A DNA stretch of 64,000 bases from Fibrobacterota bacterium (GTDB lineage Bacteria > Fibrobacterota > Fibrobacteria > UBA11236): the NCBI GenBank assembly GCA_028287505.1, contig JAQBPN010000006.1, positions 1 to 64,000 on the forward strand, in the 5' to 3' direction. Below are positions 23,548 through 43,511 of the stretch, in pieces; positions within the stretch are counted from its first letter, which is position 1, and each line of letters starts with the position of its first letter. The position numbers and the translations under genes were made by a program. The notes under the pieces are model-generated. The model saw only the letters and a list, made by a program, of their open reading frames with translations, made no database searches and was not told where the DNA came from.

Positions 23548-24534
23548 ATGAAGACTTTAGAAGGCCCGCCGACTGAACTTGAGGAAATATCCTTGAAAAA
23601 CAAGGCAAATTTCCTCACGAAACAGATTCCACCGCCGATTTTTGCTAGGCACGAAACTTTCCACCCAAGATTTGGGTGGCTAAAAAAAGGTTTCGACAAA
23701 ATCATTGAAGACGAAGCGATTTTTCTCTCCCCAGATGCACCGGTGCTACTCGGGGTCGGAAAGAACATGGTTCAGGCAATTCGCTTTTGGTGTACTGCTT
23801 TTAAAGTGGTGGACGAGCACCAAAATAAAGGCGAAAAAGCCCGAAAAGGTAAGCCAAGCCAATTTGGAAAGAGGCTTTTAGATGATACAGGGTGGGATCC
23901 ATATCTTGAGAATACAAATTCTCTCTGGCTCTTGCACTGGCATTTACTTAAGCAACCATGCACAGCTACTGCATGGTATTTCTTTTTTAATTACTTCCAC
24001 CAACATGATTTCACAGTAAACGAATTTTCTGATGGCTTGATAGATTTTAAGAAAATTAATTATCCAAATTCGAAAATTGTCGATGAATCTTTGCACAAGG
24101 ATGTCTCTTGCCTTTTGAGAATGTACGTGTCACATTCAGAGTTAAAACAGCCGGCTGAAGAATCTTTAGACTGTCCGTTTACAAATCTGAATCTCATCCA
24201 AATTGACGAAACGAAAAGATTCAGATTCAATACTGGCGAAAAATCGAACCTCTCTCCAGAAATATTGGTTTCGGCATGTTTGGACTTCGCATCAATGGAA
24301 TCTGACCAACCAGGTACGATTTCAATCACGCGCTTGCTGTATGATATTGGCAGCCCTGGATTAGCGTTTAAAATTTCCGAGAGCTTTATTTGCGCAGCAA
24401 TTGAAAATATTGTCACAAGAAATTCAGATATCACCTTTTCTGAAACAGCCGGGCTGATCCAGCTGGGATTCAAGAGAAGACCGTCGGATTTAAAGGAACT
24501 AATTCTCAATTCCTTCTATAAGAAAAACCGGTAG
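23548..24534 (+). CDS. DUF4007-family protein
   Basis: A 328-residue protein with the DUF4007 hallmarks: FARHETFHPRFGWLKKGFD, VLLGVGKNMVQAIRFWCTAF, GWDPYLENTNSLWLLHWHLL and ATAWYFFFNYF. DUF4007 proteins are found next to PAPS-reductase-like and ATPase genes in defence loci tied to DNA phosphorothioation. Their biochemical role is not established to my knowledge. It is the first gene of a seven-gene operon; the start ATG follows GAGG with about 5-base spacing. The next gene starts 11 bases after its stop. Base composition is AT-rich, matching the island. Confidence 0.8.
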   Translation: MKTLEGPPTELEEISLKNKANFLTKQIPPPIFARHETFHPRFGWLKKGFDKIIEDEAIFLSPDAPVLLGVGKNMVQAIRFWCTAFKVVDEHQNKGEKARKGKPSQFGKRLLDDTGWDPYLENTNSLWLLHWHLLKQPCTATAWYFFFNYFHQHDFTVNEFSDGLIDFKKINYPNSKIVDESLHKDVSCLLRMYVSHSELKQPAEESLDCPFTNLNLIQIDETKRFRFNTGEKSNLSPEILVSACLDFASMESDQPGTISITRLLYDIGSPGLAFKISESFICAAIENIVTRNSDITFSETAGLIQLGFKRRPSDLKELILNSFYKKNR

Positions 24535-24545
24535 GGGAGATTTAA

Positions 24546-27500: not shown

Positions 27501-28049
27501 GCCTTCTCGGTTCGCAGCCAGGCAGAGAATATCCGAGAGGATCTCAGAGTACGGGCAAGCTACTTGCAAGGTCAATGCTTAGAAATGAGACTTAGGAGCT
27601 TCCTGTATGCGGCAACTAATGAGGACGCTACCGAAAAGGAATGGCTTGAAGGTCTAGTGATGGTCATTGCGGACAAACCCGCGGAGTCGTGGCTTGATGA
27701 CGACCAGCTTGGGTTCGAGATGAACTTAAGTGATATGGCTCGCAGGTTCATGAATCTCGAAGCCTTGCAAAAGGAATTCGCCCAGGCGCCATCGGCGGCA
27801 TTCGATGCCAGGAGAATTACCATTACTCAGCCGAATGGACAAGAAATCCACCAATTGATTTGGATAGACAAGGAAAAGCAAGAAATAATTGATCATTGGG
27901 TGGATAACATTTTAAAAAGCGAAACAATTCGGGGTAACGAATCGCTAAAGCAAGTCCTCGTTGCCGCACTAATGGAAAAGGTTTTTTCCCAAGAAAAAAT
28001 CAAAAGAGAAAAAATGGGTTCCGGAAAGAACGGTAAAAAATATGCTTGA
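24546..28049 (+). CDS. Large AAA+/P-loop ATPase of the phosphorothioation-like operon
   Basis: An 1167-residue protein. Walker A is G63-P-Y-G-S-G-K-S70 and Walker B is LLIVIDELG with D198 and E199. Residues 1-40 (SRRYTRSINLERDL, NGYIPTENTRDVL) precede the P-loop as in BrxC- or PglY-like defence ATPases. The long C-terminal part is helical, with charged stretches near residues 950-1030 that may be coiled coil. A strong AGGGGAG site precedes the ATG. The stop overlaps the start of the PAPS-reductase-like gene by 8 bases. It probably acts as a DNA-dependent ATPase in modification or interference; assignment to a named subunit is not possible by eye. Confidence 0.75.
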   Translation: MPLLSEYIKLSRRYTRSINLERDLHDSDALNGYIPTENTRDVLNRFFLAYSTPKSCRAWTLTGPYGSGKSAFAHFLLSLYGNEADPIRAKAQKILRENIGNSILPFKSYKANLSDRGVVRAIATAQREPISNTIIRALWRGVQLFWRENRGRNPSWVDDLDDLVKKISKGKLIPAATAYEFVQTVSQATDHGLLIVIDELGKNLEYAAQNHTTDDLFLLQQIAELPSNEDSPKVFIVGLLHQSFLDYAHILPNGQRNEWAKVQGRFESIPFVESPDQTLKLLSQAIIRKNTGPVQDRVYSWAKKWRGAFGEDPYVLRTLGESLPNLFPLHPIAAISLPILCNKFAQNDRSLFTFLTGSQPHSFNNFLKEESWSENQTRSLQLYRVYDYFVDSAGIAMNSRPQMQRWVEIQGRIDEAKHLSLESIVVLKTIGLLNLVSLSGPLRATRRLVVNALLDRADDPKKSEWEKSIDDLINQNLIIWRKQIDELRIWEGSDFDIEKAISDSASTIQISLAHTLSKSWPLRPQLIQRHSYKSGTLRFFQRLYIDKSEQLLELSQKPTEFDGVICFWIGATPEFDELPNFKTADGKPIVLVVGRQQSVLQSLCKEYLALRSIENKTPQIQNDGVARREIKQRIFILKNSIAESIQRSFDFSSEEILVVIEGVKSKTTGESRFHSELSDLADKVYSKSMVLWNELINRKEITAQAAKARSELIEAILTKSSIERLGLEGNGPECTIYESILKSTGMHHEENGKWTIGQPKANSSIQEVWIAIQNFFLSAVDQKKPLSALYDHLYAPPYGVRQGPLPIMLAAFLVQHTDDISIFYEGSFIPSLGPENFELIVKAPHKFEFKYFELTGLKAQFFKELESIFSNSKDPGNVQTRTLTLLRVVKPLIRFIRGLPAYTLKTKNISKEAMEVRKVLLEAIEPDHLLFELLPRACGIDPIQFKDGGDIERAKLLKKKVVAVLKELQSAYEDLLNSNKKLIYEAFSVRSQAENIREDLRVRASYLQGQCLEMRLRSFLYAATNEDATEKEWLEGLVMVIADKPAESWLDDDQLGFEMNLSDMARRFMNLEALQKEFAQAPSAAFDARRITITQPNGQEIHQLIWIDKEKQEIIDHWVDNILKSETIRGNESLKQVLVAALMEKVFSQEKIKREKMGSGKNGKKYA

Positions 28050-28842
28050 AAAAAAAATTCGCCACATTATGGGTTTATCTGGAGGCAAGGACAGCGCCGC
28101 TCTTGCCATTTACCTTTATAAAAAAATCCCAAACCTCGAATATTTCTTTTGTGACACTCACAAAGAATTACCCGAAACCTATGAGTTTCTGGATAGAATT
28201 AAGGCCAGACTCGGAATAAAAATTGAATATTTGAGCGCAGAGAGAGGCTTTGATCACTGGCTAAACGTATATGGCGGCTACCTGCCTTCACCAAAATCTA
28301 GGTGGTGCACGAAACAATTAAAAATTGTTCCCCTCGAAAAATTTGTAGGGGAAGATGACGCCATAAGTTACGTGGCCATACGCGCCGATGAAAATCGCGA
28401 AGGATATATTTCCACAAAACCCAATATTAAAGCGGTTTTTCCTTTCAAGGAGGCTGGCATTGATTTGGCGGGAGTCAGGAAAATTCTTGATGAAAGTGGC
28501 ATAGGAATTCCCTCCTATTACGAATGGCGCACAAGGTCAGGGTGCTATTTCTGCTTTTATCAGCGGAAATATGAGTGGGTTATGCTTGCACAGGAGCACC
28601 CTGATTTATTTGCAAAGGCCATTGAGTACGAAAAAATGCATAGTGATGGCCGGACATTTACTTGGACTCAAAAAGAAACGCTGGAGGAGTTGATCGCCCG
28701 GAAGGACGAAATTCTCGCCGACCATGATAAAAACCTCTTAAGGACTAAAAAAGCAAGCCCTAATAAGCCCCTTTCAGCTATTCTTGGGCAAGTTTTAGAT
28801 GCGGAAGACGATTCACTTCCATGTCAAATATGCCATTTATAA
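28042..28842 (+). CDS. PP-loop PAPS-reductase-family protein (DndC-like, short)
   Basis: A 266-residue protein with the PP-loop S-G-G-K-D-S at residues 13-18, FFCDTHKELPETYEFL, and Cys at 89 (SRWCTKQLK), 168 and 171 (SGCYFCFYQRKYEW). A further C-x-x-C is at the very end (261, 264). In Dnd systems DndC binds ATP and a Fe-S cluster and delivers sulfur to the DNA backbone. This protein is about half the length of DndC and nearer the compact family found with DUF4007. It overlaps the preceding ATPase gene by 8 bases. The role in sulfur transfer to DNA is inferred from family and context; the cysteine desulfurase at the end of the operon fits as sulfur donor. Confidence 0.78.
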   Translation: MLEKKIRHIMGLSGGKDSAALAIYLYKKIPNLEYFFCDTHKELPETYEFLDRIKARLGIKIEYLSAERGFDHWLNVYGGYLPSPKSRWCTKQLKIVPLEKFVGEDDAISYVAIRADENREGYISTKPNIKAVFPFKEAGIDLAGVRKILDESGIGIPSYYEWRTRSGCYFCFYQRKYEWVMLAQEHPDLFAKAIEYEKMHSDGRTFTWTQKETLEELIARKDEILADHDKNLLRTKKASPNKPLSAILGQVLDAEDDSLPCQICHL

Positions 28843-28921
28843 AAGCAGACTATTCGGACTCGAAAGAACCTACGACGAATACAACTCTGTTCCCAAAAAC
28901 CTAACTGACAGACGAGGTAAA

Positions 28922-30802
28922 GTGAGCGAATCAAGTGTAGTGGAAAAATCCTGCTTGGATTCCAAATGGATTAAATTCCTCCGTCAGTTCGGTCCAATCC
29001 CCCAAAATGATAATATGTATGACGAGGTAATCCGGGCATCCGCACGGAGAGCCAATATCAAGCCAATAGTTTTTGAAACGGAATATTTGCAGGAGGTTGT
29101 GGAAAACTTTCAATCTACAGCCCCGGTTTCCATTATTCTCACTGGGACCGCCGGTGATGGGAAGACCTTTTATTGCCGGCAAGTCTGGGTAAACCTAGGA
29201 GGCTCGGAAGAGATTTGGAATGGTGGAGCAAAAATCCCGAAAATATTGGCGTTAGATTTACCTTACAAAAAGCTTTTCATCATTAAAGATCTTTCCGAAT
29301 TGGATGATACCGATTCGAATTTTCTTTTCCAAATTGCAACCGATCTACTTTCTTCAAACCCATTGAATGTGTACCTCATCGCAGCTAATGACGGGCAATT
29401 GGTCGACCGATGGAAAAGTCTTGGTTCGGACCCTATTATTGAAAAAGTGAAATCTGGGATTGAAGAGCATCTGCTTAACGGCAAAAGCGATACAGTTCAA
29501 TGCAAGCTATTCAATTTGAGCAAGCAAAATGCATCAATGATGCTGGAACGGATCATCGAGTCAATTGTCCAGCATCCTGGCTGGGACGGGTGCAAGGGAT
29601 GTAAGTATTTGGTTGAGACGGCAACCAGAGCAAGGTGCCCAATTTTGGAAAACAAAGCTCGCCTTCAAGGGAAAGAGGGCGAGCGTCTCTTAAGAACGAG
29701 GCTTGCTGAATTAATTGAACTTAGCGAGCTAAATGAGACCCACTTTCCGGTGCGACAACTCTTGATCTTAATTTCTAATGCGATTTTAGGCCATCCCGAC
29801 GTGGATCTTCACCTCATGACGTGTAAGGACGTTGAAAAGATCCTTGAATCTGGTTCGAGCCATTTGGCCAGTGTTTTCAGAAACATCTTCGGTGAAAATT
29901 TATCCAAGCGCAAAAGAGAGACCACAGATGTTTTCGAAAAACTTGGTCGTTTTGGGATTGGAAGTGAAACCAGCAATAGCATTGACAACATTCTTGTTTA
30001 TGGCGAGGATGATCCTGAGTTGACCCCTCTTTACAATGAATTGGTGTTATCAGATAAGGTTTTCGGAATCAATCCCCAGCAGCAGGCGGTAAAGAGGAAT
30101 TACCTCGAAGGAGTCCAGGGCAGCGATTCAGAACCTTTTTTAAATCTCCTGAGGGCTCACAGGCAAAGAATATTTTTCACTATGCCTGAAAGAATGGTTG
30201 GTGAACTCCGGTTATGGGACTTGACTGTGTTTCAAAATGCGGGAGAGTATCTATCCCTTACTCGAATTTTGAAAAGCAGAAAACCCATTCATCAAACCCT
30301 TGTGAAGAAAATCGTCAAAGGAATGAATCGGGTTTTTACTGGAATGCTTCTATTTAATCAGGAAGAAATTGTTTTGGCAACTTCAGGCAGCCATTCACAA
30401 GCCAAAACAAGTCTCATTTTGGAAGACTTCATTTCGGTTCCGAAGAAGCAAGGCGAAAGTGTTTCTATCCAACTAGGACAAGATTTAGGATTGCAAAAAG
30501 ATGTACCGGTCCTATGTGTTACAATTGGAAAATCCCCTGACCTCCAGCCAATTTATCTACCGCTAACTCTGTTAAGATTTGAATTCCTTTGCAGAGTAGC
30601 GGATGGCGTACTCCCGAGTAGCTTTTCGCTTGAATGTTATGAAGATATGCTAGCCTACAAATCAAGCATTTTAAAGCAACTCGAAAAAAGAAGAATGATT
30701 GACAACGATGGAATTCCCACCGTGGGACTGGATATCAGATTCCTAGAATTGAAACCGGACGGCTTCGTTACTACTCGTACAGTGGATGTGAAAATTCAAT
30801 GA
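28922..30802 (+). CDS. dptF: DptF-like P-loop ATPase
   Basis: About 626 residues from the GTG at 28922, preceded by CGAGGT. An upstream in-frame ATG at 28799 would overlap the previous gene by 44 bases and is less likely. Walker A is G-T-A-G-D-G-K-T at residues 75-82 of this form. A Cys cluster (GWDGCKGCKYL ... RARCPI, near 220-240) may bind a metal. The region LASVFRNIFGENLSKRKRETTDVFEKLGRFGIG resembles DptF (DndF), an ATPase of phosphorothioation-dependent restriction. Its stop overlaps the start of the next gene (ATGA). The DptF name is a family-level call from memory of the family. Confidence 0.65.
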   Translation: MSESSVVEKSCLDSKWIKFLRQFGPIPQNDNMYDEVIRASARRANIKPIVFETEYLQEVVENFQSTAPVSIILTGTAGDGKTFYCRQVWVNLGGSEEIWNGGAKIPKILALDLPYKKLFIIKDLSELDDTDSNFLFQIATDLLSSNPLNVYLIAANDGQLVDRWKSLGSDPIIEKVKSGIEEHLLNGKSDTVQCKLFNLSKQNASMMLERIIESIVQHPGWDGCKGCKYLVETATRARCPILENKARLQGKEGERLLRTRLAELIELSELNETHFPVRQLLILISNAILGHPDVDLHLMTCKDVEKILESGSSHLASVFRNIFGENLSKRKRETTDVFEKLGRFGIGSETSNSIDNILVYGEDDPELTPLYNELVLSDKVFGINPQQQAVKRNYLEGVQGSDSEPFLNLLRAHRQRIFFTMPERMVGELRLWDLTVFQNAGEYLSLTRILKSRKPIHQTLVKKIVKGMNRVFTGMLLFNQEEIVLATSGSHSQAKTSLILEDFISVPKKQGESVSIQLGQDLGLQKDVPVLCVTIGKSPDLQPIYLPLTLLRFEFLCRVADGVLPSSFSLECYEDMLAYKSSILKQLEKRRMIDNDGIPTVGLDIRFLELKPDGFVTTRTVDVKIQ

Positions 30803-32346
30803 GAAATAGAATCCCACGCCCCCTGAATATCGGGCAAAATGAGATGTGGATTGACGAAGCAATATGGGGGCATCGCTTACATGATGAGCAATCTCCCTGG
30901 CTATGCTTCCTTGAATTTCTGGGAGTTCTATACTCCGAGCATAAGAAAGGATCCGCCTTCGTAGAAGCAAAGCCCAACACCCTAACTTATGCGCCGCAGA
31001 TACAGTTAAATATTCGCAACATCTTGTTCAACAACCCGACTATGGGCGTCATTGTATCAGAAACAAGAAATGATCAAGATAGATGGACGAGATGGCTTGA
31101 AAGAATGAATAGCAAAGCAGCCAATCGGGAGCCAACCGATTACTCTTATTTAAGGAATCATTTTGATTCTTTCGATGATTTTTTCTTTGTAGTTAAATTT
31201 CTTAGGTCTTCTGCAATAGAAGGAAACAGCAATAAGCGGTGGAGTTCAAAATTTGTATTCCCTTATGGGCCCAATTGCCTGTATGAGGATCTCAATTTCA
31301 AGAATGATGGATTTTCAAACGACAGAAGATTTTTCGGTAGGACCGGAGAAATCCTTTATCTCATGCTTTGCCGGAGTGGCAAGGGTAAGGAAATACTCGA
31401 AAAGCTTGCTCCGATTGTATTTAACGAAACTTCAAAATGGAACATTTTAGGAGGAATTCTACAAGGTAGTCCGCAAAATAATGAGGCGAAGGGCGGGACC
31501 TATCTGCCCTATGAGTTTGAACCGGAATACGGTGATATTGCCTCCGATTGGCTATCAGTCCTAAATTTGCGATTGCCCGGATATGATGCCCTACCTCATT
31601 TGGTAACACTACTAGGCTTCCACCTAATTCGATACCAATTAAATCAATCCCGGATTGAACTCGGTGAGATGGGGAAGGCTACCTTTATTTTTGAAATTGT
31701 CGCTCCGAAGAAAACAATTATACGAGATTTGGCCGCAGAATCCTTCAGCGAAAACAACAGCCTTCCGCAGCAGGCCATAGAGAAAATGATCAAGGATATT
31801 TTTTCCACCTCTGAATGGGAGCAGGCAAAATCTTCAAATGACCCTCAGGGTCAGGCCATTAAACTGTTACAGGAAAAATTTGCATGGCCAAACAAACAAA
31901 ATGAGACGGCTCTTCAGATCCAAGAGCCCGATGGGCTAGCAAAATACTTGGTGGATTGCTCACTCGCTCGACATAAGCAACACCTTGGAAAATTCCACGG
32001 TACCTGGGGTAGACTAATTGGGTTATCCTCACGTCGGGTAAGCAGAAGAACAAGGTATGCACCGACAGACAGTTTTTTAAAAAGTCTCGTAGTTTCAAAT
32101 GTCAAAAGCCGAATGGAATACCAGGAATTCCTTCGCATCCTTTTTGAAAGATATGGAATAATTATCGGTGAGAAACAGGCCTTTGGCAATCCGCTAATCC
32201 AATCCTTAAACGCCGATAAAGAGTCCTTTGCTGACAATTCAAGAAGACTTGAGGAGCGCTTATCTAGCCTAGGTCTATTGAGGCGATTATCCGATGCCTG
32301 CGCTTACGTAGAAAATCCCTTGGTAACGATGGAGAAGACCACGTGA
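30799..32346 (+). CDS. Unrecognised subunit between DptF- and DptH-like proteins
   Basis: A 515-residue protein, overlapping its neighbours by four bases on each side (ATGA at 30799, GTGA at 32343), so it is a core part of the operon. Its position corresponds to DptG in dptFGH loci, but I see no motif that proves the homology. Features include a GGTYLPYEFEPEYGDIASDWLSVLNLRLPGYDALPHLVTLLGFHLIRY block and a basic segment (GRLIGLSSRRVSRRTRYAP) that could contact DNA. No P-loop, nuclease or methylase motif is visible. Confidence 0.6.
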   Translation: MRNRIPRPLNIGQNEMWIDEAIWGHRLHDEQSPWLCFLEFLGVLYSEHKKGSAFVEAKPNTLTYAPQIQLNIRNILFNNPTMGVIVSETRNDQDRWTRWLERMNSKAANREPTDYSYLRNHFDSFDDFFFVVKFLRSSAIEGNSNKRWSSKFVFPYGPNCLYEDLNFKNDGFSNDRRFFGRTGEILYLMLCRSGKGKEILEKLAPIVFNETSKWNILGGILQGSPQNNEAKGGTYLPYEFEPEYGDIASDWLSVLNLRLPGYDALPHLVTLLGFHLIRYQLNQSRIELGEMGKATFIFEIVAPKKTIIRDLAAESFSENNSLPQQAIEKMIKDIFSTSEWEQAKSSNDPQGQAIKLLQEKFAWPNKQNETALQIQEPDGLAKYLVDCSLARHKQHLGKFHGTWGRLIGLSSRRVSRRTRYAPTDSFLKSLVVSNVKSRMEYQEFLRILFERYGIIIGEKQAFGNPLIQSLNADKESFADNSRRLEERLSSLGLLRRLSDACAYVENPLVTMEKTT

Positions 32347-35300
32347 ATTCAATTGAGTTGATAGGTCAAGTCGGCGCAGAAACTTTAAAAAGGGCCTTGG
32401 AAAAAGAAGGTGACAACTCAGGAGACAATGGTGTCGCACGATTTATTATGCACCAACTTACAGGGAATCAAGTCGGTCAAATTGTTCGAGAAATTCTAGA
32501 TGATCCAATTTTAAAAGAAAAAATTGAAATTAAAATTCCAAGGGAATTTGTGGAAAGTGAAGGGTTGCCGGAGGAGACTTTAACCAGCGAAAGAACCACA
32601 GCCCTCAGGCATGCTCCTTGTACGAAAGCTGCACTTTTACTTGCCAATACCAATGATGACCAGGATCAGTCCTTAAAAGACATAACAAGACTAGGAGCTT
32701 CTGAATTTAAAGAGTCGCCAAATATTTGGGTGGCAATCGCCTCGCGCGGACTACCGCTTTTACCGGAAATGCATCTCCACTGGGCATGCGCCCTTAGAGG
32801 CCTTTTGCTTGCCCATGAGGTCAGTTTAGAAGACTATGCGAATTATATTAAGCTAACTGCCGAACGCATTAGGATTGACTCTGTACCCCTGTATGACGCT
32901 CTTGGTTGGGCCCTCCCCGCCCTTCGATTGCCGAGAAATTCTGGCCGCTTTGTATCCATTAAAAGCAGAGATTTTAATAACCCTGGTGCCTGGAAACGTT
33001 CGTTCGGTGAGGCTTTCCAGAAGTTACAACCGTTGCTGAAAAAGCAAACATCTTCGAGGCAAATTTTAGAACCCGAGGTATTGCAACTTCAATTCGAGTC
33101 AGTAAAGGATCAAATTCCATCAGAGGCGCACGGCGTGGTCCAGGCTTTCATCAACGCGGGCCCAAACTGGACTGAGCAGTCCGCTGCCCTATCAGAATTA
33201 GAGTGGGAGCAACAAAGCATATGTCAGGTTTTTTCAGGGATCAAAACCGAAAAAATTAGTCTTGCCGATGAAACGATCCATTTTTTTGACTTTGCACATC
33301 CTAAGGCATTAACTGAAGACGATTCAAAATACTTGGTCACCTTAAGGCAAAGAAAAACGAAGGAACCCCATGAGGAAGATAAGGAGTTCTTCGAAAAGCA
33401 CAGGAATGAATTGCATGATGATAAGCCACTAAAATCAAAGTGGGACAAATTTATTTATGGCAAAAACATTGAGTGTACAGATTTTTTGGTCGGCTTAATA
33501 AGCGCATTGGAACGCCTATATGAACAAGCGGCACCTTTTTCTGGAAAAAAGAAACTCATTATCAGAGCTCAGCGAAAAACAAAAAAAGCCTGGATGGAGC
33601 TGAATACTGACCTTGGTTTATTTTTTTGCCTGAGATATCGTGGCATTGAAAAAATGACATCCCCATTCATAGATTGGGAAGTGTCGAACCTTTTTTCATT
33701 CGATAAATTAATTAATGAACTACTACAGCAAGAGGCCAAAAAGCGGAAATATCCTATTAATACATCCTCTGCTAAATCGGCTACCCAAATAAAGTTTGAA
33801 ATCGAGCTTCAATTTTCTGGTACCCAGGTTAAAAGGTCTCAGGTAACCCAACTTATTTGGATGGGAAATCCCAATTCAATTGGAGGGCAAATTTATGATG
33901 ACTTGGACAGATTATCCAAAAAACCATTCGTACGCCATGAAGTTTCTCGGCAGCCCATTAACAAAAAGGGTCAACTTCAATCGATTTCATTAGAGGATGT
34001 TTCCTCCCTTGATGCTGCTTTCAGGCAAGATGCAGGGTCCTTAATCGGAACATATCACCTTGCTAATGATTTTGGGAAACCCTATTTGAAAAAAATTGAA
34101 GAGGCCGAAAAGCAGAATCGACTCGATAAAGATGGGGCATATGCCATTAAGCATGCCTGGAATACTTTTTCAGAAAATTACAAAAGCGCATTGGTTAACT
34201 GGTTAACCAATGGTGTCCAGTGTCCTGAAATTCTGACGCAGGCCTATGCATTTGGCGCGCTCTTAGAAATCTTGAAATTGCATTGCCGCGGTGACCTCAA
34301 CCGGAAAGATTTTTGGGAGCCCATTCTTCAAATAGGCAATATTGATATTGTCGGAGGGGCCCCAGCTGCAATTATCGCTCCCTGGCACCCTTTACGGTTA
34401 GCTTCTATCGCCGTTAAAACAAGGCTTGTTGCCGGGCTTTTCAAACGAATACTATCCAGAGAAGATGTCAATTTTGGTGATTCCAGGCTATTTTTTGCTG
34501 ATCTCAAAGAGGAGTTACTCCATCCATTTTACCCTGAAGTATCTGTCGGCCGTACTAGCGGCGCATTTCAACTACTGATAGCGACCGATACTCTAAACGA
34601 TTATAGCCTAATGGAAATGTCAACGAGAAGTGATATGGATTCTGCCACAAATGAATCGCCTAAGGATTCGGCAAATAAAATTGTCGACCTCGTAGATCGG
34701 TATTTGACACTCCAGCCGCATGAGCAAGCGAATTTAAGCCTTGCTCTTTACAACTGCGACTCAACAGGGCTTCCTATAGCCGCAGTGGAGGCTTTGGCGG
34801 CTTTTAAAGAGGACGAAGAAGTTCGGTGCAATATTGTGCTAAAGCACAACGACAATGTGAAGTTAAGTCACTTGTATTCCGAAATGCTGGAAAGCGTTGA
34901 TTCCGACCCCGATGCCGCCGTGGCAAGCGAGAATTCTAGAGATTTTATGGCAAAGCTCCGTGTAGGAATATTGCTAGATGCCGCGCCAAAGAATAATTCC
35001 ACCGATGGGAAGCTGGTCGATATTGTCTTTCTTCAGGATGTCGTTTCAAGGAGGGCGTCATGCAGCTGGGTTTCACAGAACTTCATTGAGGTCCCTCCGA
35101 ATATCCTTGATCATATTCCGCCGAGGTGGTCATACAAAAGATCGGCAGCTGAGGATGAGCTGAAATCTTCATCATATATTGTTTGCCCAAGACAACCAGC
35201 CTGCGGACTTGCCTATCTTGATGCCGTATTTTCACTCACTACAAATGAATCGGCCCCTAAGGATTCTCACAAGTTGCCGATAAGGCAAATCGCATTCCAC

Positions 35301-37709
35301 GATGGATCAATTAACTCTTTATTCGAAGAAGTTCATAATTTGGCCGAGTGGGTGGTTAACTATGACACCCTTTTAGATAAGCGATTGCTTAAGAACCAAA
35401 ACATCAATATTATTCGGTACCAACGAAACCGCTCGCAAGGCCGAAATTTACTTGTATCCTCCACCTCACAAACTAGGGTATTGATAGCTTTAGTCATACG
35501 TCGACTAACGGAGTTAAATCTTGGTATTCCCCCTGAGTCCATTCATGAATTGGCAAAAAAGCTTATTTCGGAAGCCGGGGAAGTTTCTGGTGATATAGTC
35601 ATGCGGGCTGCTAAGAGAGGCGTATTCGCTGGTGAATTGTTAGGACTGGTACTAAGCAAGCTTCTTGTAAAGTCAGAAATCTCTGCGACTCAACCGGTTA
35701 TTTGGTTTTCTCTGGACGAGTATGCGGATTGGCTTGGACAAAAAGAGGAGAAAATCGCCGATATTCTTGCCCTGAGTGTGTACGAACGTCAAGGGGAGAC
35801 GATCTTAAAAATTGTTGTAACCGAATCCAAATATATCGACACTACGGGAGCTTCTGAGGCGAGGCGCAACTCCTCTCGGCAATTAACCGATACTGTGAAG
35901 CGGATTGAAGATGCCCTTTTTGGTGACCCAGGCCGGCTTGACAGAGATTTATGGCTGTATCGACTAAGTGATTTGATTTCCGAGGGAATCCCAAATGGCC
36001 TCGCTGCCAACAGAATGTTCGATGCCATTCGAGACAAGGTTCGCCTAGGGGAGGTAAAAATTGATATCAAGGGATATTCCCATGTTTTTGTCCATGGGCC
36101 TTCTGGTTCAGCGTACCCGAGTGATCAGGAAGATTTGGGTTCAACAAGCAATTGCTATCAAGAGGTGTTTGACAGGGAGAGTGTTCGAAATTTGGTTCTA
36201 AATTACCTGAAAAATGAGTCCATATCAGAGATTAGGAAAAAGCTTGGTGACAAAAAGCCTTGGGACTTTGAAGTCCCAAAGATGCCTGCACCCAGAGTCT
36301 CCTGGGTGGACAGGCAAGGCCTTTCCCCTGAGGATATTTCGCTTGGCGAAAGGGTTCAAAACAGTAACTATCCGAATGCTTTGAATCCATATTCAATTGA
36401 ATCTACACAGCATTCTCTGCCCCAGAAGGATGGCGGGTATCCCATTGGAACCGACGCCCCCTCTGCTGAAGATGATCAGCCGCATGAATTGAAAAATAGC
36501 GGTCTTGTCGAGCAGCCTGAGGTCGAGGATATCGTACTGCCGTACTCCCCAGCCGTCAACAAATTGATTTTGGAGAATAGCCTCGGGCTTGCAACTAGCC
36601 CAGAGGACTTTCAATGGCTCGAAACAATCGGAATGACATTACGGACCGCCCTTGTTAGCTATGACCTTCAAGCAAAGATTCTCGGGTCGAGGCTAACCCC
36701 TAACGCTGCTGTTGTTCGACTCAAAGGGACAGATCGTTTAAGGACAGAAGATATTGAAAAAAAACAGTCCCAACTTTTAACTACCCATGCTTTGCAAATC
36801 ATTAGTATTACCGGAGTTCCTGGTGAAATCGTAGTGGCAATTGCCAGACCAAAACGTCAAACTATTTCTCTTTGGGACCTATTAAAGGAGAGGAAAATAA
36901 ATAGGTCAGATTCCGGGATTAACATGAGCTTCATCCTAGGCGTCAGGGAGCTCGATGGCGAGCAGCTTTTCTTGAACTTATCAGGGCCGTTTGGAGGAAG
37001 TGTTCAGCATGCCCCACATACCCTAATTGCTGGAGCTACTGGTAGTGGAAAATCTGTGCTATTGCAAAATTTGGTTTTAGATATATGCCTTACCAATTCA
37101 CCAAGACTTGCAAACATTTACCTCATCGATCCTAAAGGTGGAATCGACTACCCAGGCCTGGAGAAATTACCTCATCTAAAAGGTGAGGTAATAGTCGACC
37201 AAGGTAAAGCCATGGAAGTTCTGGAATTCTTGGTACAAGAAATGGACCGCCGATATCAGCTTTTCCGAGGGAAGGCCTCAAACCTTCTTGAGTACAATTC
37301 TAAGGTAGGATTTGAAGGACACCTCCCCGCGATTTGGCTAGTACATGACGAATTTGCAGAATGGATGATGATTGACACATACAAGGATGCGGTATCTGTT
37401 AGCGTCCAAAGGTTAGGAGTAAAAGCCCGTGCAGCTGGTATTCATCTTATTTTCGCAGCCCAAAGGCCTGACGCGAATGTTATGCCTGTACAGCTTCGCG
37501 ATAATCTTGGAAATCGCCTTGTGCTTCGAGTCGAGAGCATTGGTACTTCAGAAATAGCTCTGGGTGCAAAAGGAGCGGAAAGATTGCTTGGGAAGGGACA
37601 TCTCATTGCGAGGTTAAGTGGTGAACCGGATTTTATCTTTTCACAGGTGCCCTTTCTTTCCAATTCAGATGTGGCGCGGATCGCCGAAGCACTAAACGAT
37701 AGCAAGTGA
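32343..37709 (+). CDS. dptH: DptH-like protein: FtsK/HerA-type motor with a candidate nuclease site
   Basis: A 1788-residue protein. The C-terminal 230 residues form an FtsK/HerA-like motor: Walker A G-A-T-G-S-G-K-S near residue 1563, LIDPKGGIDYPGL, Walker B IWLVHDEFAEW near 1665, and IHLIFAAQRPDANVMPVQLRDNLGNRLVLRV. Size and layout fit DptH (DndH), the large ATPase of phosphorothioation-dependent restriction. In the middle, D1140, E1161 and K1163 (ADILAL ... VVTESKY) have the spacing of a PD-(D/E)XK nuclease core, followed by a helix with conserved-looking ARRNSSRQL. The start is a GTG overlapping the previous stop. The next gene begins one base after the stop. Confidence 0.75.
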   Translation: MNSIELIGQVGAETLKRALEKEGDNSGDNGVARFIMHQLTGNQVGQIVREILDDPILKEKIEIKIPREFVESEGLPEETLTSERTTALRHAPCTKAALLLANTNDDQDQSLKDITRLGASEFKESPNIWVAIASRGLPLLPEMHLHWACALRGLLLAHEVSLEDYANYIKLTAERIRIDSVPLYDALGWALPALRLPRNSGRFVSIKSRDFNNPGAWKRSFGEAFQKLQPLLKKQTSSRQILEPEVLQLQFESVKDQIPSEAHGVVQAFINAGPNWTEQSAALSELEWEQQSICQVFSGIKTEKISLADETIHFFDFAHPKALTEDDSKYLVTLRQRKTKEPHEEDKEFFEKHRNELHDDKPLKSKWDKFIYGKNIECTDFLVGLISALERLYEQAAPFSGKKKLIIRAQRKTKKAWMELNTDLGLFFCLRYRGIEKMTSPFIDWEVSNLFSFDKLINELLQQEAKKRKYPINTSSAKSATQIKFEIELQFSGTQVKRSQVTQLIWMGNPNSIGGQIYDDLDRLSKKPFVRHEVSRQPINKKGQLQSISLEDVSSLDAAFRQDAGSLIGTYHLANDFGKPYLKKIEEAEKQNRLDKDGAYAIKHAWNTFSENYKSALVNWLTNGVQCPEILTQAYAFGALLEILKLHCRGDLNRKDFWEPILQIGNIDIVGGAPAAIIAPWHPLRLASIAVKTRLVAGLFKRILSREDVNFGDSRLFFADLKEELLHPFYPEVSVGRTSGAFQLLIATDTLNDYSLMEMSTRSDMDSATNESPKDSANKIVDLVDRYLTLQPHEQANLSLALYNCDSTGLPIAAVEALAAFKEDEEVRCNIVLKHNDNVKLSHLYSEMLESVDSDPDAAVASENSRDFMAKLRVGILLDAAPKNNSTDGKLVDIVFLQDVVSRRASCSWVSQNFIEVPPNILDHIPPRWSYKRSAAEDELKSSSYIVCPRQPACGLAYLDAVFSLTTNESAPKDSHKLPIRQIAFHDGSINSLFEEVHNLAEWVVNYDTLLDKRLLKNQNINIIRYQRNRSQGRNLLVSSTSQTRVLIALVIRRLTELNLGIPPESIHELAKKLISEAGEVSGDIVMRAAKRGVFAGELLGLVLSKLLVKSEISATQPVIWFSLDEYADWLGQKEEKIADILALSVYERQGETILKIVVTESKYIDTTGASEARRNSSRQLTDTVKRIEDALFGDPGRLDRDLWLYRLSDLISEGIPNGLAANRMFDAIRDKVRLGEVKIDIKGYSHVFVHGPSGSAYPSDQEDLGSTSNCYQEVFDRESVRNLVLNYLKNESISEIRKKLGDKKPWDFEVPKMPAPRVSWVDRQGLSPEDISLGERVQNSNYPNALNPYSIESTQHSLPQKDGGYPIGTDAPSAEDDQPHELKNSGLVEQPEVEDIVLPYSPAVNKLILENSLGLATSPEDFQWLETIGMTLRTALVSYDLQAKILGSRLTPNAAVVRLKGTDRLRTEDIEKKQSQLLTTHALQIISITGVPGEIVVAIARPKRQTISLWDLLKERKINRSDSGINMSFILGVRELDGEQLFLNLSGPFGGSVQHAPHTLIAGATGSGKSVLLQNLVLDICLTNSPRLANIYLIDPKGGIDYPGLEKLPHLKGEVIVDQGKAMEVLEFLVQEMDRRYQLFRGKASNLLEYNSKVGFEGHLPAIWLVHDEFAEWMMIDTYKDAVSVSVQRLGVKARAAGIHLIFAAQRPDANVMPVQLRDNLGNRLVLRVESIGTSEIALGAKGAERLLGKGHLIARLSGEPDFIFSQVPFLSNSDVARIAEALNDSK

Positions 37710-37710
37710 T

Positions 37711-38877
37711 ATGAGCCCGATTTACCTAGATAACCATGCCACAACCCAGGTTGACCCTCGGGTTTTGAGCAAAATGCTGCCATTTTTTTGCGAGGCATTT
37801 GGAAATTCATCAAGTCAGGATCACATTTATGGTGATCAGGCCTCCGCGGCTGTTGAAGAAGCTCGCTTTGAAGCTGCAAAATTAGTCAACGTAGACCATC
37901 GGCGACTCTACTTTACCTCAGGTGCAACCGAAGCAATCAACATTGGAATAAAGGGGCTAGCGCTTGACCGCAAAAATGCAAGGGGGAAGATAAGGATAGC
38001 TGTGGCGCCAATCGAGCATCATGCCGTTCTTGAAACGTGTAAGGAACTTTACAGCCTTGGAACTGCTGATATCGAATCAATTCAAATCGATTCCCAGGGG
38101 CGGATTGATTTAGACCAGGTTCAAGCCCTTTGCGAATCCAACATCGATTTGCTTTGCATTATGGCGGCAAATAATGAAGTTGGAAACCTCTATCCAGTTA
38201 GTGAGATCTGCAATATTGCGACGAAAAATGGAGTACCTGTCTTTTGCGATGCTTCACAAGCTGTAGGGAAAATTCCATTTGATTTTTCCGCTTTGGGAAT
38301 ATCTATGGCCGTTTTTTCAGGCCACAAAATGTACGGCCCAAAAGGCGTTGGCGCATTGTTTGTATCAAGTGATATTAAACTTTATCCTGTGCTGCATGGG
38401 GGCGGCCAAGAGCGTGGAATGCGTCCAGGTTCATTGAATGTTCCCTGCATTGTTGGGTTGGGTGAGGCTTGCCGGCTTCAAGGCTTTGAAATGGAAAGCG
38501 ATGATCGCCGGATACGGGCCCTCCGAGATTCATTACAAAGGTTTTTTCAAAATGAAATTGATGATGTGGTGATTAATGGTGATGAAAATTATAGGCTCGC
38601 CGGAAACTTAAACGTTTCATTCATTGGCGTTCCAAATTCTGCCGTAATTTCGCGTGTACGGAATGCCCTTGCGATTTCTACTGGCTCTGCTTGCAGCGCT
38701 GGTGTTGATGCACCTTCTCATGTATTATCTGCAATGAGGCTTGAAGCCGATGTTATTGAAGGTGCCCTTAGATTCGGAATAGGCAAATTCAATACTGGTG
38801 AAGAATTAACAAATGCCGCCAGAATTGTCTCCGATGCTGTTAAAGAAATCAGGAGAATTGTGCGAAGCGGTTTTTAG
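37711..38877 (+). CDS. Cysteine desulfurase (DndA/IscS-like)
   Basis: A 388-residue PLP enzyme. The N-terminus YLDNHATTQVDPRVL, the PLP lysine K206 in FSGHKMYGPKGVGALF and the sulfur-carrying C328 in STGSACSAGVDAPSHVL are all present. IEHHAVLETC, AANNEVG and GMRPGSLNVP complete the class V aminotransferase pattern. It would remove sulfur from cysteine and pass it on as persulfide. At the end of this operon it most likely supplies the PP-loop protein for DNA sulfur modification, the DndA role, rather than general Fe-S assembly. It starts one base after the DptH-like stop and converges with the receiver gene at 38883, leaving 5 bases. Confidence 0.88.
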   Translation: MSPIYLDNHATTQVDPRVLSKMLPFFCEAFGNSSSQDHIYGDQASAAVEEARFEAAKLVNVDHRRLYFTSGATEAINIGIKGLALDRKNARGKIRIAVAPIEHHAVLETCKELYSLGTADIESIQIDSQGRIDLDQVQALCESNIDLLCIMAANNEVGNLYPVSEICNIATKNGVPVFCDASQAVGKIPFDFSALGISMAVFSGHKMYGPKGVGALFVSSDIKLYPVLHGGGQERGMRPGSLNVPCIVGLGEACRLQGFEMESDDRRIRALRDSLQRFFQNEIDDVVINGDENYRLAGNLNVSFIGVPNSAVISRVRNALAISTGSACSAGVDAPSHVLSAMRLEADVIEGALRFGIGKFNTGEELTNAARIVSDAVKEIRRIVRSGF

Positions 38878-38882
38878 ATGGG

Positions 38883-40862
38883 CTAAGAGTTTTCTGAATT
38901 CGGATTGGGGGAGGATCTATCATCTCCTGCGATTGCGGCAGGTTCCTCTCGAACAGCTATTACAATACCCTTTTGTTTTAGTTGAATTCCAGACAAAGAA
39001 ATATTTATTCTTGTCGTCCAGGCGATTTGCTTCGCTTGAAACCCTGGAGTTCCTGGATCCATTTGAAGTATTTCCCTGAATGGTCCTCCTACCACAGCAG
39101 GAATTCTTACCCCTCTTTCCAAGGCGATTAAAAGATCTCCATTTTCTTTTAGCGCCTTCAGTTTTTCACGAAACGATGGGTGAACCAATGTTGGCTCAAC
39201 GTCCTGTATTCTTTCACAAATTTCTTCACAAGCATCCTCCGACATTGTTAGTCGCATTTCTTTTTGGCCATTTTGTCCCACATAACAGACTCCGGGGTCA
39301 ACCCCCAACGAGGAAACAGATAGTTGTCGTCCAGTTCCGGCAACCTCTGGATAATAAACCTCAACCTGTACAGGGAATGTCGCCGGCATTGGGACAATTA
39401 AACCAATCCTCCCGATATTTGCCAAAAGCTTTTGCTGAAGTTCAAAGGCGCTTGACTCTCTTAGCCGAGCGACAACCTTTGTCGGGCCGCCTTCTTGAAG
39501 GTATTTTTCAATTTGCTCCCTTGAAATTGCCTCAACGTGCTTTAGGTCCCATTTAATCCAATATGTGGATTCATTGAGCTTTATAATTGGGGTTCGGATA
39601 GGAGTTTCTTCATATTTCCAATCCGTCGGTTTCAGTTCCTTCATACTCCCAACCAAGAGCAGCACTCGCTTAGTGCCTGTTTCTCGCTGGAGATCACATG
39701 CAGGAGTCATTACAACAAAAATATTTTCTTTTGCCAAACCTTTAAGGGGCCCATCTATTTCAGCTGGATCAATTTCCTGATTCTTCCAATAAATAATGTC
39801 GCCAAAAGTAATTTGACCTCCAACCGACCCGGGGAGCTTCAATCGATTAGGGTTTTGAAAAATGGATGAATAGACCAAATTTTGAAGATTTCGGGATCCT
39901 CCAATATGCGGAGGCGGATAGTAATTCCAATTGACTCGGTTGAGTTCAACTGCCGAATCAATAATCGTTGTGTCGCGTTCTAACTCATGCTGAAATACCC
40001 TATCAAAAACATCAACCAAATAGCTTCCTGTTAGGGCTCCCTCTTCTGTGAGCAACAAATCGGTTATCTGGGCATAGTCCGAAAGATCCAATGTTCGGAT
40101 TAGTTTTTCGGTTCGGCTTCGAGCATTTTCAATTCCGCTCAGCCAAGCTTTTAAAAACCCTACGAGTTTTAATGAGTCTGAATAATGATTTGCAAGGCGA
40201 GATAGCATCCGTTGGAGCTTTCCAGGAATGGAAATGCTTTCTTTTCGAAAAACCCTGAACATGGACTCTGGGACCCCTGCTCCATCCCTAAACTCTTCTC
40301 GCCTTAAATTTAGCCTTGTGCTCCCAGACATGAGGACAATAATCGGAGGGCGCCCAACTCGACCTCTAAGGGTCATACCTAGGCCATTTATGGATAATCG
40401 AATAGCGTCTTCGGTTTGCATCGTACCTAGAAAAAGATCAATAAAAATGATATCAGCTATCAGGGCCTTTTCAATAAATTCCCTTCCACTTCGTTCACAA
40501 GTCAGGCCAAAGGAAACTAACTGGGTGGATAGGTCATCCAATTTTTGGATCTCAAAGGCATTTTCTCGAATGTAACGCTCAAAAAGCGGATCGAAAATAG
40601 CCGGCCTGCGTTCTCGGTTTTTCCACAAGGCTGCCACAAACTCATCGGAATTTTGCAAATCTCCGGCATCCGTGCCCTCGTATTTTGGAAATACCTCCTG
40701 AAGAAATTCATGATCTTCTGGTGCGAGGTCTTGGAAAAAGAAACTCCACTCCTGAACATCAGGAAGCAAGTCCAATGCACGTGGAACTTCATCAAAAGCG
40801 TCATCTATGATTAAGGCTTTCTTAACTTCAATATTTTCGAAAAGAGATTGAATTTCGGGCAT
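38883..40862 (-). CDS. Receiver-domain protein with long insertion and unknown output region
   Basis: A 659-residue protein. The N-terminus has receiver features: acidic pair D20-D21 (ALIIDDAFDE), phospho-acceptor D142 (IIFIDLFLG), a Ser/Thr switch near S179-S181 (IIVLMSGS) and K207 (VFRKE). The spacing from D21 to D142 is far longer than the roughly 40 residues of a standard receiver, so about 80 residues are inserted after beta-1. The C-terminal 400 residues include FGDIIYWKNQEIDP and NIFVVMTPACDLQRETGTKRVLLLVG, which I have not tied to a family. It starts 4 bases after the kinase stop, so it is the partner of that kinase. No DNA-binding domain is obvious, so the output may be enzymatic or scaffold-like. 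Confidence 0.65.
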   Translation of the reverse strand: MPEIQSLFENIEVKKALIIDDAFDEVPRALDLLPDVQEWSFFFQDLAPEDHEFLQEVFPKYEGTDAGDLQNSDEFVAALWKNRERRPAIFDPLFERYIRENAFEIQKLDDLSTQLVSFGLTCERSGREFIEKALIADIIFIDLFLGTMQTEDAIRLSINGLGMTLRGRVGRPPIIVLMSGSTRLNLRREEFRDGAGVPESMFRVFRKESISIPGKLQRMLSRLANHYSDSLKLVGFLKAWLSGIENARSRTEKLIRTLDLSDYAQITDLLLTEEGALTGSYLVDVFDRVFQHELERDTTIIDSAVELNRVNWNYYPPPHIGGSRNLQNLVYSSIFQNPNRLKLPGSVGGQITFGDIIYWKNQEIDPAEIDGPLKGLAKENIFVVMTPACDLQRETGTKRVLLLVGSMKELKPTDWKYEETPIRTPIIKLNESTYWIKWDLKHVEAISREQIEKYLQEGGPTKVVARLRESSAFELQQKLLANIGRIGLIVPMPATFPVQVEVYYPEVAGTGRQLSVSSLGVDPGVCYVGQNGQKEMRLTMSEDACEEICERIQDVEPTLVHPSFREKLKALKENGDLLIALERGVRIPAVVGGPFREILQMDPGTPGFQAKQIAWTTRINISLSGIQLKQKGIVIAVREEPAAIAGDDRSSPNPNSENS

Positions 40863-40866
40863 TCGG

Positions 40867-43278
40867 TTACTTGCTATTCGGAATTTCTAGCACGAACCTG
40901 TGGAGTCTGCCTGTATCCGGGTTTACCGTTTGATCGAGATACAATTTACCTTTGTTGTATTCTGCGGATTCCTTTGCAATGAAAAGGCCAAGACCTCTCC
41001 TTTTTGATGGTTCCTTTAATGAAAACCAGGCTTCAAAAACCTTACTTTGATTTTCTATAGCAATTCCTTGCCCGTTGTCCTCAAAGAGAATTGTTGATGG
41101 ATTTTCTTGTAGGGAAATCTTTATCTCGGGAATAAGTTTCGAAGACTTCGAGGCCTTTATATCCAGCCAATAAATGGAGTTTGAAATAAGATTTTCCAAT
41201 ATCTGGACTACCATTCCTTTCACGGCCTTGATTGAATCTGCTTTCGTTGGCAAGTCAAGAACGACATGGATATTGTGCCTTTTAAATTGGGCCTCATGGG
41301 CCTGGATCGTATCTTTTATCAATTCAGAAAGGGAGAAAACCTCGAATCTTTGTCGGCCTGAAATACTCATTGGATCAAGTATCCGTATCCGCTTTCCAAG
41401 GCTCTTCATTTCTTCGCGCAAGGTTTCCAAATAACCACGTAATTCATCTGGAATTGATTTACGCTTTAAACCATCAAGCATCTTCAAAGCGTTTTCTGAA
41501 GCCCTTGCTAATTCATGTGCGACAACTTCAACCATCAAACCGACACCGGCCATTTCGACCATCTGACGGCTTTCCTGTTCCGCTTCTAATATTCTAGTCT
41601 GTGCCCTAGCAGCTAAATCTGAAAACTCGAATACAGCTTGTTGAAGCTCTTCAATAAGATCTTGGCCTTCAGATATTGCCAGCTTTTTCAGTTTTTTAAG
41701 CGCAATATTTGTACGCGCCTCAAGATTTTTGATCTCGGATTTAGACTCTGAAAATTCTGTTTTTTTAACCTTCTTAAAATCCTGCTCCACTTGTCGCATG
41801 AAATTCAGAAGCTGATCTTGGATTATCAATTTCATGATCCGCACAAAAACTATCTGTTCTGGAGTTTCTCTAAGCCCTTCGCGATTTGTTTGATCCAATA
41901 GATTTTTGTTTGCGGTTCTTGAAATCTCGACCCGGCCAACAAATTGTGCTTTGTTGAGCGCGTACCCTGATCGTCCTAGCGCTTTTCGATCAAGGTCAAG
42001 CCAATCATCTTCATCATCGCCATATGGAAAAACCCTGAATGCGTCTCGGAAAAGCCGGATTCCGGACCATTTAATCTGCAAGTCTCTTACGGCTCGTTGC
42101 TCCCCGATTCCGTCGATCCGAGACAAATTTTTGCGGTTATACCAGTACGCCTCAAATCTAAATGGCCCAACAGTTACCAGCGCACTCTCTGGGACCAGGA
42201 GCTCCTTTCCAATTACAGCACCATAGATATCATCTGCAGAAACGGTTGACACTTGTAACTTTTTTGGATGGTCGAAACCAAGATTAATCGCTTCAAGAGA
42301 ACAGGTTAAATTTGGTTTTCCGTTCTCAATCGAATATTCCCCCTTAACAATGGCGTGCGCGTTTTCAAGTAGATCTTTATTCATGGTGGGGATCATTACC
42401 CTGTCTTCATTCCAAAAAAGTGCGATTCGTTTTTGCTTTTTTGGATCAAGAAACGGATCAGTCAACTTGGAAAAATCTTCATCCGCCGTTTTTTCGACCT
42501 TTCGCCTTGTCCAATCTTCTTCGAGCTTTGTGATTATAATCCGCGTTCCAGACCAAGAGGGTTGTGTCTTTAAGGCCCCGGATTTTGGATTAATTACAAT
42601 CTCATCGATCATTGCATCAAGATTTTCAAAAAGGTCCCAATCAATTTCTAATACATTAAATTTGGTATCCTCTACCCTCGCAGTTTCTACGCGCAATTTA
42701 TTTCCAAGGCGCATAGCAGAAAGCCGTCCAATCCCCTTTTCTCCAAGGAAAGGAGTACTTTTCGCACCCTTTGCCAGTGCTTTTTCAACTTCGTGTTTCC
42801 TAGAAGCGGTTCCAATGACCAAGAAATTTTTTTGAAGGTCCGCGATCGACATACCCGATCCGGTGTCACTTATAATAATTGAATTACACTTTCCCTGGGC
42901 TTCATCCAGGGCTTCCAAAACTTCGGAAACGGAACTGGCGGCGCTAATGATGTCTTCAAAAGCGGTGATTGTTTTAGGGGATGCATCACGGTTTATTGAG
43001 GCTAAAATTTCACTCTGCATATCGGAATAATTAACCGCCTCGGACTCGAATTTTGATTTGAAGGCTAGGTAAGAATTATTTCGGAGGACAACATTAAATC
43101 GAATTTCAACGCCAGTTTTTGTCCCTGCATCGAACCCATTTTTTATCAATTCGTAGAAGGCGATGATGTCTGAGCTGATCAACTCAGACCCGAGCTCCAA
43201 GACCGTTCTAGCGCAAACTTTAAACAATGCTGGTTCCCTTGAAAATGTTGCTTCAATGTAAAAATGAGGGTCGGCCAA
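40867..43278 (-). CDS. Cytoplasmic double-GHKL ATPase / histidine kinase
   Basis: An 803-residue protein without membrane segments. The N-terminal domain is Hsp90/MutL-like: E43, N47 and D50 in FYELIKNGFDAG, D138 in ISDTGSGM and the lid GEKGIGRLSAM at 179-189. A middle region leads to a coiled coil (about 500-580). Then comes a HisKA-like helix with H588 (VEVVAHELARASENAL) and a second GHKL domain with N696/N700 (ILENLISNS), D734-N-G-Q-G and RGLGL at 761-765. It is therefore both chaperone-like and a canonical histidine kinase. The start is TTG (43278-43276) after AGGG. It forms an operon with the receiver protein. Sensing of an intracellular signal such as DNA damage or phage infection is inference. 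Confidence 0.75.
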   Translation of the reverse strand: MADPHFYIEATFSREPALFKVCARTVLELGSELISSDIIAFYELIKNGFDAGTKTGVEIRFNVVLRNNSYLAFKSKFESEAVNYSDMQSEILASINRDASPKTITAFEDIISAASSVSEVLEALDEAQGKCNSIIISDTGSGMSIADLQKNFLVIGTASRKHEVEKALAKGAKSTPFLGEKGIGRLSAMRLGNKLRVETARVEDTKFNVLEIDWDLFENLDAMIDEIVINPKSGALKTQPSWSGTRIIITKLEEDWTRRKVEKTADEDFSKLTDPFLDPKKQKRIALFWNEDRVMIPTMNKDLLENAHAIVKGEYSIENGKPNLTCSLEAINLGFDHPKKLQVSTVSADDIYGAVIGKELLVPESALVTVGPFRFEAYWYNRKNLSRIDGIGEQRAVRDLQIKWSGIRLFRDAFRVFPYGDDEDDWLDLDRKALGRSGYALNKAQFVGRVEISRTANKNLLDQTNREGLRETPEQIVFVRIMKLIIQDQLLNFMRQVEQDFKKVKKTEFSESKSEIKNLEARTNIALKKLKKLAISEGQDLIEELQQAVFEFSDLAARAQTRILEAEQESRQMVEMAGVGLMVEVVAHELARASENALKMLDGLKRKSIPDELRGYLETLREEMKSLGKRIRILDPMSISGRQRFEVFSLSELIKDTIQAHEAQFKRHNIHVVLDLPTKADSIKAVKGMVVQILENLISNSIYWLDIKASKSSKLIPEIKISLQENPSTILFEDNGQGIAIENQSKVFEAWFSLKEPSKRRGLGLFIAKESAEYNKGKLYLDQTVNPDTGRLHRFVLEIPNSK

Positions 43279-43490: not shown

Positions 43491-43511
43491 GGGTCCCCGA
43501 TATCTTGGAAA

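Follow-up and report, generated by a model that had tools for sequence, protein, structure and literature searches.

A kinase-receiver pair of the paraMORC type linked to Ssp phosphorothioation loci, probably the signalling switch of one Ssp branch

A histidine kinase (HK) and a receiver protein (RR) encoded side by side in a Fibrobacterota genome belong to a real, conserved and phosphorothioation-linked branch of paraMORC two-component modules, for which the genomic case is strong, and the pair probably serves one branch of the Ssp systems as its signalling switch. The reading that we favour, with a probability of roughly 0.55, is that the two proteins form a dedicated cytoplasmic His-Asp two-component module of this branch, in which clamp sensing would gate the restriction arm or the modification. 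The window, i.e. the whole stretch of 64,000 nucleotides analysed here (contig JAQBPN010000006.1), contains a complete Ssp phosphorothioation-defence locus adjoining the pair (sspB-C-D-F-G-H-A, 23548-38877, PADLOC), with both the modification genes (SspB, SspC and SspD) and the restriction arm SspFGH. Ssp is an anti-phage system that introduces sulfur into the backbone of DNA. The original prediction had placed the pair in a defence island, and this tie to defence stands, now refined to a complete Ssp phosphorothioation locus. The features of the locus and the pair are:

23548..24534, plus strand: sspB (DUF4007; PADLOC SspB, 384 bits)
24546..28049, plus strand: sspC, BrxC-like ATPase (PADLOC, 1284 bits)
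28042..28842, plus strand: sspD, PAPS reductase-like (PADLOC, 378 bits)
28799..30802, plus strand: sspF (PADLOC, 703 bits)
30799..32346, plus strand: sspG (PADLOC, 655 bits)
32343..37709, plus strand: sspH, FtsK/HerA-type (PADLOC, 2203 bits)
37711..38877, plus strand: sspA/dndA cysteine desulfurase (PADLOC, about 433 bits)
38883..40862, minus strand: RR, receiver protein of 659 aa (AlphaFold pLDDT 88.9, pTM 0.85)
40173..40862, minus strand: RR 1-230, receiver domain with D20-D21, D142, S179 and K207 (AlphaFold, VIA-align, alignment)
39837..40172, minus strand: RR 231-342, helical linker domain (AlphaFold)
39366..39809, minus strand: RR 352-499, beta-rich output domain (conservation, AlphaFold, hhalign)
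40867..43227, minus strand: HK, sensor kinase of 786 aa from TTG at 43227 (ORF open to 43278)
41908..43227, minus strand: HK 1-440, GHL (Bergerat) ATPase and S5-like transducer (conservation, AlphaFold, fold match)
41361..41862, minus strand: HK 456-622, long helices with the DHp phospho-acceptor H571 (AlphaFold, sub-threshold match to HEF_HK, PF19191)
40870..41352, minus strand: HK 626-786, CA kinase domain (Pfam, conservation, fold match)

The cysteine desulfurase gene sspA/dndA is convergent with RR and 5 bases away from its end; with this convergent arrangement towards ssp, the pair requires a promoter of its own in the window. It is flanked by sspA on one side and by a tRNA-Arg and a regulator ORF on the other, with no C5-methylase as a neighbour. 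The G+C content is about 42-49% at 22000-43444 compared to 59-63% right of the tRNA-Arg (43444-43512), and the transition at the left border of the island is more gradual (48-53% at 16-22 kb). A search for direct repeats at the tRNA-Arg gave none, and the five integrase matches of the genome all lie on contigs other than that of the window, so that integration of the island at the tRNA is no more than putative.

Architecture of the kinase and its receiver

As originally predicted, both genes lie on the minus strand with HK upstream, its stop codon separated from the start of RR by 4 bases. The start of HK is most probably the TTG at 43227, because homologues begin there (their N-termini read M-x-F-x-V-x-A-R-T-V-L-E-L-G), and it is preceded by an AAGGGA element. 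From the N-terminus onwards, the kinase consists of an Hsp90/MORC-type GHL ATPase module, coiled-coil/DHp helices and a catalytic ATPase (CA) domain, and Pfam recognizes both ATPase domains (HATPase_c_3 at 124-219, E 7e-15; HATPase_c at 690-800, E 3e-14). The first ATPase site (E26, N30, D33, D121 and the lid G162-K164-G165-G167) is invariant in 47 kinases, and so are H571 and the CA residues N679, N683, D717, G719, G721 and G745-x-G747. The claim of a double-GHKL kinase is thereby confirmed. In the earlier numbering, E43, N47, D50, D138, G179-K181-G182-G184, H588, N696, N700 and D734 were invariant in eight diverse homologues as well; the residues had been picked correctly, but their numbers drop by 17 when counted from the TTG start, with H588 becoming H571. 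In the AlphaFold model of HK (pLDDT 81), the N-terminal half matches the folds of Hsp90 and MORC3 equally well (Z about 20), while the C-terminal half matches those of HK853, ThkA and ZraS (Z about 20). The models of both HK and RR are predicted to contain nothing but soluble folds.

The receiver domain of RR had been described as stretched, with its acidic pair D20-D21 far from the acceptor D142. Judged from its predicted structure, it is a true receiver fold extended by a helical insert that is conserved: the model aligns to Spo0F and CheY with a Z of 11.4 and an rmsd of 2.1 over 113-114 residues (VIA-align), and it places D20/D21 at the end of beta1, D142 in beta3, S179 in beta4, K207 in beta5 and, between beta1 and beta2, the insert (approximately residues 29-117). 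D21 and D142 are 115-132 residues apart in each of the 54 RR homologues, which makes the insert a conserved feature of the family. D20, D21, D142 and K207 are invariant among these homologues and position 179 is serine or threonine in 54/54, so that the active site of the receiver is complete. Thus, the canonical two-component set is conserved throughout, i.e. the phospho-acceptor histidine and the CA domain in the kinase and the D-D, D, T/S and K residues in the receiver.

The model of RR is beta-rich throughout residues 352-640. Within the output domain, G354, C389 (in the motif C389-D390-L391), R485 and G487 are invariant and D390 is present in 53/54 homologues. RR itself belongs to no family in PADLOC, Pfam or NCBIfam, the 54 homologues gave no consistent match to Pfam and PHROGs, no match was found in phages, and comparisons with PDB sequences yielded no match with either the single sequence or the profile.

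Linkage to ssp genes and variable restriction arms

Eight plasmid records match RR, two of them near-identical, and the HK gene adjoins RR in all eight; the seven distinct plasmid loci that we read carry ssp genes around the pair in 7/7 cases. With the HK alignment as query, 84,980 species genomes yielded 357 relatives; we read the best 80 of them, a choice that favours close relatives. Together with the plasmid loci these make up 87 loci from at least nine phyla (hosts are Pseudomonadota, Verrucomicrobiota, Bacteroidota, Planctomycetota, Nitrospirota, Acidobacteriota, Rhodothermota, Chloroflexota and a patescibacterial lineage). Some ssp gene is present in 85 of the 87 loci and SspB/C/D in 80. 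The two loci without ssp (L026 and L045) both run into contig ends; in the kinase tree, L045 groups with the ssp loci L043, L056 and L063, and the neighbours of L026 are the same as those of L025. The genes usually run sspA-B-C-D-HK-RR; 11 loci have the pair inserted into the ssp operon, after sspC and before sspD (sspB-C-HK-RR-D). These linkage counts rule out that the pair and ssp share a defence island by coincidence.

HK and RR are adjacent in 82/87 loci (median gap -1 base), and the clustering with defence is specifically one with ssp genes. In L081 and L082, two ORFs make up RR beside an intact kinase, possibly due to decay, a frameshift or an assembly error. The Rhizobiaceae plasmid loci L002, L004 and L005 have the same left border (integrase, VapBC and an RHE_PE00001 family gene), which suggests one integration site for these islands. 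The pair had been proposed as a self-standing undescribed system, a view that must be given up, since all of the homologous loci that are well sampled are Ssp phosphorothioation loci and the pair therefore belongs with a named system.

For the converse test, genomes were drawn evenly from two classes (385 + 369 = 754). In the search of the window's phylum, only genome G000 had a strong SspD, and the class-level sampling was therefore centred on other genomes. SspD was found in 10/385 and 10/369 genomes. None of the 734 genomes lacking SspD contained RR, in a search that scored few candidates per genome and may miss divergent RRs, and the three sampled genomes with RR were all SspD-positive, two of them being seeds. 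With the seeds excluded, the pair was found near ssp in one of 18 SspD-positive genomes (L133) and was absent from the other 17, within up to 20 kb around each SspD gene (five of the stretches were shorter at contig ends or starts). Ssp systems thus normally work without the pair. The linkage is one-way, in that the pair predicts Ssp while Ssp does not predict the pair, and the pair so marks a minority branch of Ssp systems.

Effectors near the pair vary. SspFGH is present in 30 loci, SspE in four, PbeA/PbeC-like proteins in six, a triad of a helicase, an MzaB-like GHKL protein and a PLD protein in eight, and a TPR/AAA protein in six, while none of these five known or candidate effector modules occurs in 23 of the 66 loci that are flanked by 8 kb or more in both directions. 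Given this variability, the constant partner of the pair is the SspBCD modification module. The triad of helicase, MzaB-like GHKL and PLD-like genes lies beside Ssp and HK-RR in L009 (5476-9856), L047 (14440-18855) and L048-L052, and is a candidate for a further restriction arm. The AAA and TPR-repeat protein of about 988 aa is encoded immediately downstream of RR in L009 (14521-17484), L012, L013, L015, L025 and L026. A four-gene set following sspD in L079 (14986-19226) and L073 encodes an SNF2 helicase, ParB-N, ParB-HTH and a metallo-beta-lactamase-fold protein. In the literature, sspBCD loci have mostly been reported without sspE or sspFGH (PMC8092258).

Methylase-associated relatives and known systems

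The closest described relatives are the paraMORC two-component-like pairs of HEF_HK (PF19191) and Response_reg_2 (PF19192) (Bellieny-Rabelo 2021, PMC8011034). They resemble our pair in having a soluble kinase with an N-terminal HATPase_c_3 and a C-terminal HATPase_c domain (both in 47/47 Ssp-linked members) and an adjacent receiver with the D-D, D, T/S and K set and loop extensions, as well as in their linkage to DNA modification genes. The published pairs adjoin C5-methylase type II restriction-modification (R-M) genes and Vsr/HNH, and phosphorothioation, Dnd or Ssp are nowhere mentioned in that paper (PMC8011034). HEF_HK matches the window kinase with 18.2 bits against a cut-off of 24.1, and 43 of the 47 members at E<=0.1 (best 3e-6), while Response_reg_2 matches none of the 54 RR members at E<=1 (Pfam).

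The relationship extends to the output domain. In the C5 cassettes (L158-L162), a C5-methylase is combined with the kinase and a receiver of about 550-630 aa, and on the plasmid loci L160, L161 and L162 the C5-methylase, a 990-aa GHL kinase and a Response_reg_2-type protein are encoded side by side. The receivers of these cassettes end in RR motifs, namely [ST]-P-x-C-D-L and R-L-R-x-x-x-A-L...R-[VI]-G, and hhalign aligns the R-L-R...R-x-G block of both groups with 96% probability (E 4.9e-9). On this sequence evidence, the C-D-L/R-x-G output domain is homologous between the RR family and the Response_reg_2 proteins. The original prediction had left the output region of RR unassigned, and this remains accurate, as the shared domain has no Pfam match in scans of the RR family or the C5-cassette receivers. 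A tree of 59 kinases places all ssp-linked members on one side of one branch (SH-aLRT 100) and sets the C5-linked ones apart (SH-aLRT also 100); this is a quick tree with long branches flagged, and its deeper order is unsure. The Ssp-linked pairs are a clade separate from the HEF_HK/Response_reg_2 pairs and are associated with a different modification chemistry.

Prophage cassettes on IMG/VR contigs (L140-L155) encode an N6-methylase or an Eco57I-type methylase, a GHL histidine kinase, a short receiver and an HNH nuclease, an R-M-like unit built around a phosphorelay. Like our pair, they have a two-ATPase kinase followed by a receiver gene. However, identities are at 22-35%, a methylase takes the place of SspBCD, the receiver is only about 225 aa long and lacks the extended output region, and the HNH nuclease is separate; their kinases form further branches.

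In Detocs, a histidine kinase and receiver proteins serve defence, and the receiver is fused to a purine nucleoside phosphorylase-type enzyme. No nucleoside phosphorylase-type Pfam domain was found in RR or its relatives, which agrees with the original view that Detocs differs. The MORC/paraMORC ATPases of R-M systems (BbrUII/HgiDII-type) have the N-terminal GHL and S5-like module in common with HK; they work with helicases and endonucleases, and a receiver partner is absent from the text that describes them (Iyer 2008, PMC2292703). With SspB, C, D, F, G, H and SspA/DndA, the window carries components of the SspABCD-SspFGH and SspABCD-SspE systems, among whose described parts there is no kinase or receiver (PMC8092258). 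A kinase-containing two-component system near Ssp has been noted in Acinetobacter baumannii global clone 2, with speculation about a new variant (PMC12421847); it is similar by description, and its membership in the HK-RR family is putative. The claim of an undescribed composition thus stands in part. PADLOC has no model for the pair, and as a part of Ssp it is absent from the searchable Ssp/phosphorothioation full texts, whereas the related HEF_HK/Response_reg_2 pairs are published (PMC8011034). The novelty of the pair is conditional on this searchable literature.

Proposed role and significance

GHL modules dimerise upon ATP, and in MORC proteins DNA gets enclosed, while histidine kinases hand phosphate to receivers. 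From this family knowledge, we infer how sensing, phosphotransfer and gating might proceed in the pair. The Hsp90/MORC-like N-terminal module of HK would sample DNA in an ATP-dependent manner, and the clamp may read it as foreign or as lacking phosphorothioate, the sensed feature being a guess. By analogy with other histidine kinases, such sensing would switch autophosphorylation at H571, from where the phosphoryl group would be passed on to D142 of RR. Phosphorylated RR would then act via its C-D-L/R-x-G output domain, most likely through protein contact, and could license the local restriction arm (SspFGH in the window, and SspE, Pbe-like or other modules at other loci) or, alternatively, adjust the SspBCD modification complex. 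The pair might thereby keep an otherwise self-toxic restriction arm off pending a signal, and such gating is plausible because SspFGH is toxic to cells lacking phosphorothioation (PMC8092258).

A possible though rather doubtful alternative is that RR is the effector itself, its phosphorylated C-terminal domain being a nuclease, a nucleotide-acting enzyme or a toxin, and hence an extra restriction arm for SspBCD (and, in the related cassettes, for C5-methylases). The 23 well-flanked loci that show none of the five effector modules would fit this, as would the Pseudoalteromonas and Pantoea plasmid cassettes, where C5-methylase, HK and RR stand alone with no separate nuclease gene adjacent; orphan C5-methylase cassettes could, however, be purely epigenetic, and many loci already possess a full restriction arm. 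The invariant polar residues of the output domain (C389, R485, and D390 in all homologues but one) point in the direction of an enzyme or toxin, and there are weak fold matches to a PemK-like protein (probability 0.85, E 0.017) and to a viral endoribonuclease (TMt 0.52). An alignment of the output core to an alphaproteobacterial PemK profile even falls into the expected register (G354-D355...TPACDL on the PemK core). However, this likeness falls short of significance (hhalign: 2% probability, P 0.02), full-length RR has no Foldseek match to the PDB below E 0.001, with the follow-up fold comparison mainly spanning the receiver, and the Arg-Pro typical of MazF is missing from RR.

An ordinary two-component regulator that tunes ssp transcription is unlikely. 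A kinase-receiver pair beside its possible target genes is the usual layout of such regulators, and the convergent orientation in the window would give the pair its own promoter, but no DNA-binding domain is recognizable in the 54 RR members (Pfam) or apparent in the confident RR model, and in 11 loci the pair is part of the ssp operon. Moreover, in the prophage relatives the receiver is short and paired with a gene for an HNH nuclease instead, which points to control at the protein level. We consider it very improbable that the Hsp90-like module, regulated by the kinase half, helps the large SspC/SspH complexes to mature or assemble: Hsp90 is among the best fold matches of HK and one sub-branch has the pair between sspC and sspD, yet the MORC fold matches equally well, the relatives adjoin DNA methylases, which need no chaperone, and most Ssp systems are without the pair. 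Least credible is a free-standing anti-phage system that merely shares islands with Ssp, as the fact that the pair can occupy the other strand or be removed from ssp by a few kb (the window, L009, L025 and L028) is outweighed by ssp genes in nearly all of the 87 loci, the absence of RR from every SspD-negative genome sampled, and the intra-operon pairs, which such a system can hardly account for.

The preferred reading, a phosphorelay switch dedicated to one Ssp branch, can be extended, as a tentative idea of rather low probability, to a general class of phosphorelay-gated DNA-modification defence across 5-methylcytosine, N6-methylation and phosphorothioation, in which a MORC/Hsp90-type clamp-kinase would read the modification and the output of RR would be a phosphorylation-gated effector. 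If this were true, the pair would be one missing restriction arm in phosphorothioation loci without SspE or SspFGH.

The control of a restriction arm that can attack its own host is a standing question in phosphorothioation systems (PMC8092258), for which a phosphorelay is a concrete candidate. The same candidate applies to sspBCD loci lacking sspE or sspFGH, and it is addressable at H571 and D142. Further, the pair connects phosphorothioation with the methylase-associated paraMORC kinases and exposes an unannotated output domain that is common to both.
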